From positions 1-35,125 of the forward strand of contig JAISIV010000027.1 in the NCBI GenBank assembly GCA_031261865.1: a stretch of DNA of 35,125 nucleotides. Direction: 5' to 3'. Positions 7,291 to 30,800 of the stretch are shown piece after piece. The notes beneath the pieces were generated by a model, which had not been told where the DNA came from, did not search any database, and worked only from the letters and a program-made list of their open reading frames with translations. The translations under genes and the position numbers were made by a program. Every line of letters begins with the position of its first letter. Within the stretch, counting starts at the first letter, position 1. The DNA comes from Lactobacillaceae bacterium. Its GTDB lineage: Bacteria > Bacillota > Bacilli > Lactobacillales > Lactobacillaceae.

Positions 7291-7318
7291 TTTTGCCTTG
7301 GAATTTAATGATTAACTT

Positions 7319-7448
7319 TACGAATACCTAAAGGTATTCGAAATTTATTATTGACAAACTGCCGTAGAGCTACTTATTTTACGTATACATCAAGGTATCT
7401 GAAATTTATTGCCGCTAAACTGTCGTTTAGCTCCTTGTTTTTCGTATA
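7319..7448 (+). repeat. 61-bp-period tandem promoter-like repeat, array A
   Basis: CGAATA (7321), CGTATA (7382) and CGTATA (7443) are exactly 61 bp apart; intervening sequence is related to array B at ~19990-20172. Confidence 0.8.
7422..7448 (+). promoter_or_regulatory. Putative alternative-sigma (ComX/SigH-like) promoter: GTCGTT-N15-CGTATA
   Basis: GTCGTT 7422-7427, 15 nt, CGTATA 7443-7448, 9 nt to ATG 7458. Confidence 0.6.
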
Positions 7449-7457
7449 AAGAGGTAT

Positions 7458-7994
7458 ATGAATACTTCTAATATGATCCCGATTGCCATATCGTTGGTCG
7501 CAATTCTAATAAGTACGGTAAATTCATTCTTAAATTTCCGCCAAAATCGGTTTGCCAATCTGGCGTTAAGGGGTGAGAAGACAAACGAGGCAATTGACTT
7601 ATTTTTCAAAGAAGTGACCCCACTGTACAACCAATATTTAAAAAATGAATCGAAACTGACTGAGCAAGTAATTAAAAAGTTGCCAGAGGGTATGGATTCC
7701 GATAGTCCTGAACGCCTGAAGGTTGTTCTTGATGTTGTTAACAATGACTTGATTCCACAAAGGGCTCAAATTCTAAATAATTTAGAAAATGTTTCATCAA
7801 TTGCAAACAACCAGCCAATATTTCTTCGTAATCTAGAAGAGTCAATTGGGAACGATTTCGGAGAAATATATCAAAAATTTAATTACGTTTTTAGTGCTAC
7901 TTTAAGGAAAAAATTCGGTTCGATTCGAAAATTGGCGGACAAATTTTCACTGTATAATTTAGGAGATGATAAAGATGACCAAAGAACAAGCTAA
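7458..7994 (+). CDS. Uncharacterised protein with N-terminal TM segment and helical remainder
   Basis: MNTSNMIPIAISLVAILISTVNSFLNFRQ... N-terminal hydrophobic helix; long ORF. Confidence 0.75.
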   Translation: MNTSNMIPIAISLVAILISTVNSFLNFRQNRFANLALRGEKTNEAIDLFFKEVTPLYNQYLKNESKLTEQVIKKLPEGMDSDSPERLKVVLDVVNNDLIPQRAQILNNLENVSSIANNQPIFLRNLEESIGNDFGEIYQKFNYVFSATLRKKFGSIRKLADKFSLYNLGDDKDDQRTS

Positions 7995-19489: not shown

Positions 19490-19993
19490 ATGCCACAAAT
19501 AAAGTTAAAACAACCTGTATCACCAAATAATGAAGTAAAAATTCAGAAGAGTTACCTCACGCTAATTTTTAGTTTGATTATGTTTTTACCGTTCAATGGA
19601 ATTTTTATATTATTGGTCTTCGTAAGTTTTAAACAACCCGCTGCAATTTTTCTCGTGCTAGGTGCCTTGTTATTCGTATTACTTATCGATTTAACGGTTT
19701 GGGGATTTTTGATTTCGGGGATGACAGCCTTTAAATATTCGGACGACGGAATTACGATTTACAATCTCAAAAAAGTATATTTGTCCTGGAAAGATATCAA
19801 GGATGTCGAACTTAAAAGAGTCGGAACCCAGACGTTTATTTATGTTTACCCAGTTGATACCTCTTTAAAAAAGAAAGCATATTCAGTAGCTCTTTCAACG
19901 ACACAAGTAAATTTGTCGAATGAGGATATTTTTCTTGGTTTCAAGACAAGGATGAATGACATTCATGGGAAATCGATGAGCAGTCATACCTAA
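19490..19993 (+). CDS. Uncharacterised membrane protein, two TM helices plus PH-like soluble part
   Basis: Two hydrophobic segments then DDGITIYNLKKVYLSWKDIKDVELKRVG. Confidence 0.7.
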   Translation: MPQIKLKQPVSPNNEVKIQKSYLTLIFSLIMFLPFNGIFILLVFVSFKQPAAIFLVLGALLFVLLIDLTVWGFLISGMTAFKYSDDGITIYNLKKVYLSWKDIKDVELKRVGTQTFIYVYPVDTSLKKKAYSVALSTTQVNLSNEDIFLGFKTRMNDIHGKSMSSHT

Positions 19994-20172
19994 AGACGTC
20001 CAAAATTTATTATCGTCAAACTGTCGTTCGGCTCGTTATTTTGCGTATGTCTAAAGGTATCTGAAATTTATTATCGTCAAACTGTCGTTTAACTCCGTAA
20101 TGTTCGTATACACGCAGTGCATCCGCGAAACATAGTCACAAAACTGTCGTTTTGTTCCTTATTTATCGTATA
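19990..20172 (+). repeat. 61-62-bp-period tandem promoter-like repeat, array B
   Basis: Three copies of GTCGTT-N15-CGTAT at 20023, 20084 and 20146; AAATTTATTATCGTCAAACTGTCGTT shared by two units and related to array A. Confidence 0.85.
20146..20172 (+). promoter_or_regulatory. Putative alternative-sigma (ComX/SigH-like) promoter: GTCGTT-N15-CGTATA
   Basis: GTCGTT 20146-20151, 15 nt, CGTATA 20167-20172, 7 nt to ATG 20180. Confidence 0.6.
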
Positions 20173-20179
20173 AAGAAGT

Positions 20180-21538
20180 ATGGCTAATTTAACTGACTAT
20201 TCTAATACTGATTTATATATGGCAGAAAGTTCTTATACTTCTAGACCTTATAGTTTTGACAAAACTAATAAAAGACCGCCCGCTCAAGCCCAAAAGTCTC
20301 AATGGTACAAGCAAGAAAAAATAACGGACAACAAAACTGGTTACACTGCTTACTTTTTAACCAATAATCAAAACCCAAATCTGGCAACCCAGGCTTACTA
20401 TGTTGTCCGAGGTAGTGACGCTTTTGATGCTCAAAATCCTGATTGGACTGGTAATAATATTCCTTTTGCTTTAGCTGATAAGCAAGTAAAACAATCTAAA
20501 AACTTCATCAAAGATGTCCAAACAAAAATGTCTCGATACACGAACATTACCGCTTGGAATTTTACCGGTCACAGTTTAGCGACGATGGTTGTCACGACCG
20601 GTTTAAGTAATTTATCCCAAGACCAAGCAACTAAAGTTCAAGCGGCCACTTTGTTTAATGGTCCAGATGTAACCAATTCGCTCAACGTACATCAACTAAA
20701 CAATTTAAAGGACTCCGGTTTGAACGACAAAATAACTTATTACCTGAATCCGGATGACATGGTCAGCGTCTTAAATCGTTCTCAGTCTGAACAAATAGGA
20801 CATGTAAATTGGATTGACACTAAGTCGGATTACGGAACGATGGATATTGCCTCTTCACATGACTTTTATGAATATCAAGTTGTCAATGGCAAAATCAAAA
20901 CAGTTGAAAATAGCTTAGAACTGAAAACTTATATCTACGCTCAAGATGCTCTTTATCAACAGCTGATTAATCATGTTGGCAACCTCAAACTATCACCCAA
21001 AAAAGTAAAAAAGATTATTGAAACACTTGATGGAGAAAAATATGTGTCAGGAAAAATTAATTACCTGGTAAAAGAGTTTGGAAATAAAATTGATATTCAT
21101 TTGTTCTTGAAGTTTTATATGAGGTATAAAGACGCAAAAGAAATGATCGGACTGTCTAACCGAATCAACTCTTTGACTCTTCAATTGGAACACAGTGACG
21201 ATATTAAGTTAAGCGAAATTTTAGTCTCTAAAATAGAACAATACATCGGGAATTTTCTCGATAAAATTACCTTTGATACTGAAATGATCCATGTTAATAC
21301 TAGAAATAAATTACAAAAATTAATCAACGAGGCGAATATGGAACTATCAATCGCTGGATCAACCACTCAGTTCGACTATCGGTATTTTTATTCTGAGCCA
21401 CAAGAAAAAATTAACCAAAATAGTGTTTCGGTATACAAAAAGGACATGGAACAAACGCTCCACATCCTAACTAATCACGTATTTGAAATTTATAAAATTG
21501 ATGTCAATTACGCTAATAATTCATTTAAGCCAGATTAA
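20180..21538 (+). CDS. Class 3 lipase-like alpha/beta hydrolase with ~200-aa uncharacterised C-terminal region
   Basis: GHSLA nucleophile elbow, LNPDDMVS acid motif, SHDFYEY candidate His; no signal peptide. Confidence 0.75.
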   Translation: MANLTDYSNTDLYMAESSYTSRPYSFDKTNKRPPAQAQKSQWYKQEKITDNKTGYTAYFLTNNQNPNLATQAYYVVRGSDAFDAQNPDWTGNNIPFALADKQVKQSKNFIKDVQTKMSRYTNITAWNFTGHSLATMVVTTGLSNLSQDQATKVQAATLFNGPDVTNSLNVHQLNNLKDSGLNDKITYYLNPDDMVSVLNRSQSEQIGHVNWIDTKSDYGTMDIASSHDFYEYQVVNGKIKTVENSLELKTYIYAQDALYQQLINHVGNLKLSPKKVKKIIETLDGEKYVSGKINYLVKEFGNKIDIHLFLKFYMRYKDAKEMIGLSNRINSLTLQLEHSDDIKLSEILVSKIEQYIGNFLDKITFDTEMIHVNTRNKLQKLINEANMELSIAGSTTQFDYRYFYSEPQEKINQNSVSVYKKDMEQTLHILTNHVFEIYKIDVNYANNSFKPD

Positions 21539-29272: not shown

Positions 29273-30093
29273 ATAAAGTTCTTACAATTGAACACCCCAA
29301 AAAAGCCATGGTTATCTCAGATATCCATGGTTTTTGGCAAGCTCTACAAAAAATAACTGAATTACCCGAATACCATAATCCTGAATATCAATTAATATTC
29401 TTAGGAGATTACACCGACGGTGGTGCATCTAATCCGCGTGACCCTAAAAAAGTTATTGATTTTATTACCGACGAAGTATTGAATCATGATGCATTACTCG
29501 TTCATGGAAACCATGACGACATGTTGTTAGGAACCGCCAACAATCAGATGGATAAGTTCGACAACTGGTCGTATAACGGTCGTTCTCAAACTTTGCGGGA
29601 ACTGGGAATTCCCGACAGCGATGATATTGAAGTAGTTAGCAGTTATCTAAAAGATCTTCTACCTGATTATTTGAATGTTTTGAATAACGCTCCATATTTA
29701 ATCGAGGATCAAAATCGTATCTTTGTTCACGCTGGAATTAATTGGTATCTTTCCGATTACAAAAAGACGACCCGAGAAGATATGGTGTGGTTAAGGCAGG
29801 AATATCTTTTTGTTACCAATGTTCCTTTGGGTTTTGCGACACCAGGGCATCCAGTGCCAGCAAAACTAATTCATCAAAATCAAACAGACAAGGTTATTTT
29901 CACTGGACACACACCTGCATCTTTAATCACTGGAGATGCGGCTGGTTTTCCTGCAAAATTGGAAAGTGTCCGTTATGGCCTTCCTAGATACGTAATCGAT
30001 GGTGGTTCACATGGAACGCCAAATGCCGGTTTAAACGTGGTGATTGTCGACGCTGACGGCAGCATTATCCGAACTGAAAAATTATTTGGCTAA
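29269..30093 (+). CDS. Metallophosphoesterase (serine/threonine phosphatase-like), TTG start
   Basis: ISDIHGFWQAL, FLGDYTDGG, LVHGNHDDM, FTGHTPA motifs. Confidence 0.9.
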   Translation: MNKVLTIEHPKKAMVISDIHGFWQALQKITELPEYHNPEYQLIFLGDYTDGGASNPRDPKKVIDFITDEVLNHDALLVHGNHDDMLLGTANNQMDKFDNWSYNGRSQTLRELGIPDSDDIEVVSSYLKDLLPDYLNVLNNAPYLIEDQNRIFVHAGINWYLSDYKKTTREDMVWLRQEYLFVTNVPLGFATPGHPVPAKLIHQNQTDKVIFTGHTPASLITGDAAGFPAKLESVRYGLPRYVIDGGSHGTPNAGLNVVIVDADGSIIRTEKLFG

Positions 30094-30709
30094 TCATAGC
30101 TCCATAAGTTAGAAACGGTATAAAAGCCGTTTTCTTATTACCCGAAAATAACGAATAAGCAATCGTTGCAATGCAAGCTAGGATTACTGCAAGTAAAAAG
30201 TAGTGAACACTTAGCATTGATAAAAGTACCAACAATACCGGGATATCACCTTCGCCTAATTGCGCCGTGAGAATAACTGAAAAATATAAAAAGATGAACA
30301 GACTTACTAAAAATACAGGTGAGACATCTCTTAAATTTTCCAAAAATAAAAACGGTAACGGCAATAAAATCCACGAACTGCTTGTTTGATTAAAACTGTC
30401 TTCCTCGCTACAAAACAACAACAAGATGAAAACTAATAGCACGCGATAATCATCAACCGTCAAAAATAACATTCCATAAGCAAATTCGATGATTGGATAT
30501 TTGATTGCAATTCTCTGATGACAAATGGCGCATCTCCCGAAAGACATTAGCCAACCAAACACTGGTACTAATGAGATTGGTGCAATTGGCTGCCGGCAGT
30601 TGTCACAATACGAAAACCCACTTAAAGAAAGTCGTAAGTTTAGACGGTATGCCAAACACAATGTTGCAGAGGCCAAACTGGCACCTAAAATAAATAAAAA
30701 TATTCTCAT
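30065..30709 (-). CDS. comC: Type IV prepilin peptidase (ComC-like)
   Basis: CDNC...CAICHQRIAIKYPIIEFAYGMLF Zn/leader-peptidase domain and GEGDIP (GxGD) motif; MRIFLFILGASL start. Confidence 0.85.
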   Translation of the reverse strand: MRIFLFILGASLASATLCLAYRLNLRLSLSGFSYCDNCRQPIAPISLVPVFGWLMSFGRCAICHQRIAIKYPIIEFAYGMLFLTVDDYRVLLVFILLLFCSEEDSFNQTSSSWILLPLPFLFLENLRDVSPVFLVSLFIFLYFSVILTAQLGEGDIPVLLVLLSMLSVHYFLLAVILACIATIAYSLFSGNKKTAFIPFLTYGAMISQIIFQFG

Positions 30710-30716
30710 ACTTATT

Positions 30717-30743
30717 AATACGTAAAGCAGTCCGAGGAACGAC
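30717..30743 (-). promoter_or_regulatory. Putative comC alternative-sigma promoter: GTCGTT-N15-CGTATT
   Basis: Minus strand: GTCGTT 30743-30738, 15 nt, CGTATT 30722-30717, 7 nt to ATG 30709. Confidence 0.65.
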
Positions 30744-30800
30744 AAAATAGGAGTTACTTACAAAATGTAAGCGCTTTTATACCCTTGTATAATTATTTTG

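Follow-up and report, generated by a model that had tools for sequence, protein, structure and literature searches.

A putative late-competence promoter upstream of comC and its expanded candidate regulon in a Lactobacillaceae bacterium

A promoter-like element, TGTCGTT-N15-CGTAT-WAARRAGTAT, lies upstream of comC and other late competence genes in the genome of a Lactobacillaceae bacterium. We consider it very probable that this element is a late-competence promoter of the com-box/CIN-box type, read by a SigH/ComX-type sigma factor and controlling an expanded regulon. The element would be read by RNA polymerase bound to the SigH/ComX-type sigma factor whose gene follows rlmB, with TGTCGTT taken as the -35 by region 4 of the sigma factor and CGTAT as the -10 by region 2. 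Such a switch would turn on uptake and recombination (the comGA operon, comC, comFA-comFC, dprA, and recA) and, with them, a compact type VII cluster with a DUF669 protein, toxin-antitoxin operons, and small proteins with an apolar N terminus. We infer from DNA sequence that the regulon is induced during competence.

The comC promoter and its copies in the window

The window, by which we mean the whole 35,125-nt stretch of DNA analyzed, belongs to a genome (G000) of 1.23 Mb in 151 contigs that is 69% complete. On its minus strand, GTCGTT (30743-30738) is followed by exactly 15 nt, CGTATT (30722-30717), 7 nt, and the ATG of comC at 30709, as the earlier note had described. This ATG is the sensible start of comC, since the TTG at 30745 of the mechanically defined open reading frame (ORF) would put the promoter inside the gene. 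The four further copies claimed at 7422, 20023, 20084, and 20146 are likewise exact GTCGTT-N15-CGTAT matches. The arrangement had been said to stand always upstream of a start codon, which is correct for 7422, 20146, and comC, where an ATG comes 8 to 10 nt past CGTAT, but not for 20023 and 20084, which are upstream members of a tandem array (61/62-nt spacing) that ends at 20146. The window thus holds five occurrences versus 0 expected, and 100 dinucleotide shuffles gave 0 matches. The features concerned are listed here.

30738..30744, minus strand: -35-like half TGTCGTT of the comC promoter; exact match, with TGTCG-T invariant over 15 genome sites
30717..30722, minus strand: -10-like half CGTATT of the comC promoter; exact match, with CGTA before comGA, dprA, and comFA in family relatives
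30710..30716, minus strand: AATAAGT, the WAARRAGTAT stretch at comC; columns invariant or nearly so
30065..30709, minus strand: comC, prepilin peptidase (A24 family); A24_N_bact E=8.5e-18, Peptidase_A24 weak
7361..7386, plus strand: decayed tandem com-box copy GCCGTA-N15-CGTAT, 61 nt upstream of 7422
7422..7447, plus strand: com-box copy, exact match, 10 nt before the ATG of 7458
7458..7994, plus strand: small protein with an apolar N-terminal stretch and no known domain
20023..20048, plus strand: com-box copy 1 of the tandem array, exact match
20084..20109, plus strand: com-box copy 2 of the tandem array, exact match
20146..20171, plus strand: com-box copy 3, exact match, 8 nt before the ATG of 20180
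20180..21538, plus strand: 452-aa protein behind com-box copy 3; weak Pfam matches only (DUF900 E=0.003, below cut-off)

From the spacing to the -10-like half, transcription of comC is predicted to start at or near the end of AATAAGT (30710..30716).

The full element and its distribution in the genome

Exact GTCGTT-N15-CGTAT matches number 14 in the genome, versus 2 when the pattern was reversed and its spacer allowed to vary from 14 to 16 nt. When one mismatch was allowed, the count rose to 39 against a background of 16; as the genome-wide signal sinks toward background, individual sites of this kind were assessed from their genomic surroundings. A gapless alignment of 15 sites showed that TGTCG-T, CGTA, and then AA, A, and T are shared, while the flanks carry little information. 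The T preceding GTCGTT is invariant in the aligned sites and WAARRAGTAT follows CGTAT, and the full element, which usually ends in ATG, is longer than the earlier note reported. A model built from 14 sites found 15 places with E≤1.6e-7 in its own genome, and a weight matrix gave 15 matches above 30 bits in 173 kb of contigs picked for holding sites or com genes and 0 in the reversed sequence of those contigs.

Even sites with no ATG at this position (SSB and PemI operons, HicAB) retain CGTATWAARRAGTAT or a near variant, a pattern that speaks for a role in transcription rather than in translation. If CGTATW is taken as the -10, the predicted start falls within the conserved GTAT, and most mRNAs would have 5' ends no more than a few bases from the ATG. 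We therefore predict almost leaderless mRNAs for the regulon, from which most of its genes would be translated.

Most sites (those of dprA, comC, EssC, SSB, PemI, MazE, and the genes of the small apolar-N-terminus proteins) have the promoter core in common but nothing of their flanks, and this largely refutes the explanation of the motif as a dispersed intergenic repeat, spread by copying and standing before genes by chance. Such a repeat would be in keeping with the tandem 61- to 62-nt units at 7317-7438 and 19990-20171, the 47-nt repeat before recA, and the spacers at comFA, yefM, and window position 7422, which are nearly the same in sequence; however, the orientation of the sites is fixed, so is the distance of 8 to 10 nt to the ATG at most of them, and other genera have the CGTA half in front of the same com genes. 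We regard a chance repeat as highly improbable. Copied units of ~60 nt account for part of the similarity at comFA, recA, and window positions 7422 and 20146, and the copying of a functional promoter unit is compatible with the late-competence promoter that we favor.

Competence genes behind the sites

The earlier note had staked its competence assignment on other late competence genes, and the motif is indeed present at comGA, comFA-comFC, dprA, and recA, on four contigs other than that of comC. One com-box is followed by comGA (T2SSE, E=3.7e-66), the gene of a T2SSF protein (comGB), and pilin-like genes, and another by comFA with comFC (ComF family, E=9e-23). The identities of dprA and recA were established by matches over the cut-off to TIGR00732 and TIGR02012, respectively; the dprA site has one mismatch and is a CGTAA variant. 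Between the recA com-box (C122, L137:4971-5264) and recA come a reading frame of 28 aa, MNSFYIQIMANTNFIVLVGQVLNATQYR, and then a long gap. This frame could be the remnant of another gene. In the 69% complete genome, no comEA was detected, and a contig end truncates comEC. The sequence CGTATTAAGAAGTATAG occurs within the comEC coding region (C33:5701; L124:4670-6397), either by chance or as an internal promoter, and this strong-looking match was set aside as a com-box on account of its position. A search for ComGA in the named genomes returned distant relatives only, the nearest being a Weissella.

Conservation in relatives

Conservation of the whole motif in relatives was rejected, since the 14-site model gave nothing stronger than 6e-4 in 40 relatives, in which only the CGTA half recurs. 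Within the family, CGTA[ATC]T or CGTATA stands before comGA, dprA, or comFA in 25 of 54 cases (200 shuffles gave a mean of 4.6 and a maximum of 15), whereas GTCGTT does so in 0 of 54. These counts point to the -10 half as the family com-box and to the GTCGTT half as special to this species. The element had been proposed as the lineage's own com-box with a -35-like half: this description suits the GTCGTT half and the constant geometry relative to the start codon, but the CGTA -10 is family-wide. As GTCGTT is absent before the com genes of same-genus relatives, one genome only supports its role as a -35. In the same-genus genome G001, comFA retains its site (CGTATTAAGTAATTATG).

In streptococci, the com-box/CIN-box is read by ComX (SigX) and has the consensus YTACGAAYW in S. 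suis (PMC5167698). The element described here resembles it in its association with late competence genes and, as a variant, in its CG-A/T-AT -10-like core preceded by T-rich positions. It differs in reading CGTAT instead of CGAAT, in its strong GTCGTT -35 half at fixed spacing, in its tandem copies, and in that most genes start right behind the box. Streptococcal-type relatives have CGAAT and two order-level relatives of one family have CGAATA, and comFA of one order-level relative reads TTTTTCGAATAAAGAAGTATGGA, close to TTTTTCGTATAAAGAGGTATATG at window position 7422.

A candidate sigma factor

The candidate sigma factor is a 185-aa protein encoded on C31 that matches Sigma70_r2 with E=3.8e-4 (18.9 bits versus a Pfam cut-off of 24) and, weakly, the SigI and ECF models. 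Its gene lies downstream of mrnC and rlmB, an arrangement shared by five same-genus genomes, and the G000 contig ends after it; the mrnC-rlmB-sigH part of the conserved sigH place (mrnC-rlmB-sigH-rpmG-secE-nusG) is present in G000, and rpmG follows the sigma gene in three other family genomes. Orthologs at the same place in same-genus genomes are 38 to 43% identical, and low sequence conservation is usual for the SigH family (PMC3364868). The gene position fits the putative recognition of the promoter by a SigH/ComX-type sigma factor. In the same-genus genome G002, comGA, comFA, and the sigma gene are interrupted by in-frame stops (L103, L166, L208), a state of decayed competence, and comparable decay of com genes has been reported in Oenococcus (PMC6498615).

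The presumed -35 recognition helix (region 4) of the sigma protein differs from that of same-genus relatives, which would fit a changed -35 but is suggestive only. This difference, together with the rigid 15-nt spacing of the 14 exact sites, which sets the two halves at an ordinary -35/-10 distance, speaks against GTCGTT being the operator of an activator, with the CGTAT half alone forming a SigH-type promoter. An operator would agree with the presence of CGTA without GTCGTT in relatives and with the weaker sites C137, C28:3875, and C19:8788, which keep CGTATWAARAAGTATG or a close form without GTCGTT. We judge it rather unlikely and retain GTCGTT as the probable -35.

The regulon of SigH in Lactobacillus (Latilactobacillus) sakei (PMC3364868) offers a close parallel, with a SigH ortholog at the same place and com genes as the main targets. 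The candidate regulon differs in having in addition a secretion cluster, toxin-antitoxin operons, and small apolar-N-terminus proteins, and in being known from sequence only. The presence of toxin-antitoxin operons, recA, and a secretion system among its members could instead indicate a general SigH stress or stationary-phase regulon rather than competence as such. We find this improbable, given that the most diagnostic DNA-uptake operons all carry the motif and that competence genes are the main targets activated by SigH in L. sakei (PMC3364868).

A candidate compact type VII secretion cluster

Two sites lie on C19, the first before genes for DUF669, WXG100, YukD, and YukC proteins and the second before that of an EssC-type ATPase. 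The latter matches TIGR03928 with E=4.6e-87 (293 bits versus a cut-off of 778) and, at 1,076 aa, is shorter than the EssC of C50. The WXG100 protein exceeds the cut-off of TIGR03930 (71.1 bits), the YukD match is weak, and YukC scores 27.2 (cut-off, 27.4) in G000 and 43.3, above the cut-off, in G001. The ORFs of the cluster include no obvious candidates for EssA or EsaA. The DUF669 protein matches a PHROG family of single-strand DNA-binding proteins (E=1.4e-19). In G001, the order of the cluster is identical and CGTATTAAAAAGTATG is found at both corresponding places; the CGTATTAARAAGTATG half is kept at both despite an identity of only 39% for EssC (59% for the DUF669 protein and 72% for the WXG100 protein). 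A second, classical type VII locus on C50 (L236), with a full-length EssC of 1,504 aa, is without com-box sites.

We tentatively propose, as a possibility that falls short of being probable, that a single regulon with nearly leaderless mRNAs unites competence and the compact type VII system, which includes a single-strand DNA-binding protein of its own; competent cells would thereby attack neighbors and take up the DNA released. Predation on neighbors is linked to competence in Vibrio cholerae (PMC6783263), and fratricin and bacteriocin genes are linked to competence in S. suis (PMC5167698). Secreted weapons would here too be co-activated with DNA uptake, the putative weapon being a type VII cluster with a presumptive role in attacking neighbors. 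The open-access literature searched contained no competence-controlled type VII system. Competence-linked predation by V. cholerae uses type VI secretion, of which competence-controlled type VII secretion would, if true, be the Gram-positive counterpart, linking DNA uptake to competition with neighboring bacteria.

Toxin-antitoxin operons and proteins without known domains

Com-boxes precede PemK/MazF operons (MazEF/PemIK) on C6 and C32, YefM-YoeB on C76, and a MazE-like gene with a ParE-like partner on C92, and weaker matches precede HicAB (C78) and a MazE-like gene with Doc-type toxins (C19:8788). A general association of the motif with toxin-antitoxin genes was rejected: of 6 PemK-type loci, only 2 carry it. 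The toxTA operon of Haemophilus influenzae is a competence-regulated toxin-antitoxin system (PMC6957337). Like toxTA, the operons found here would belong to a competence regulon; unlike it, they are of several unrelated types and stand behind a candidate sigma-factor promoter instead of being under CRP/Sxy control. In the window, a NADAR-type antitoxin gene (PF22397, E=4.5e-55) is followed by a DarT toxin gene cut by the contig end (33924-35125); this DarT1-NADAR toxin-antitoxin pair is without a com-box.

The element provides a searchable definition of a putative competence promoter for a lactic acid branch that has com genes but in which transformation has been little studied, and a concrete set of non-uptake genes can be named as likely to be co-activated with competence. 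Among them are genes for small apolar-N-terminus proteins, preceded by com-boxes on C8, C144, and at window position 7458 and by weaker matches on C137 and C28. This family has five members in two subgroups (window 7458, L128:295, L129:3892, L134:1053, and L139:1021), all encoded behind a com-box or a com-box-like element and without known domain. The proteins are probably membrane anchored, and no member of the family was found in plasmids. The 452-aa protein encoded behind com-box copy 3 gave no match in solved structures or in NCBIfam or PHROG families, and a fold predicted from its single sequence was unusable (pLDDT, 33). Its N-terminal half is alpha/beta-hydrolase-like and its C-terminal half probably helical.
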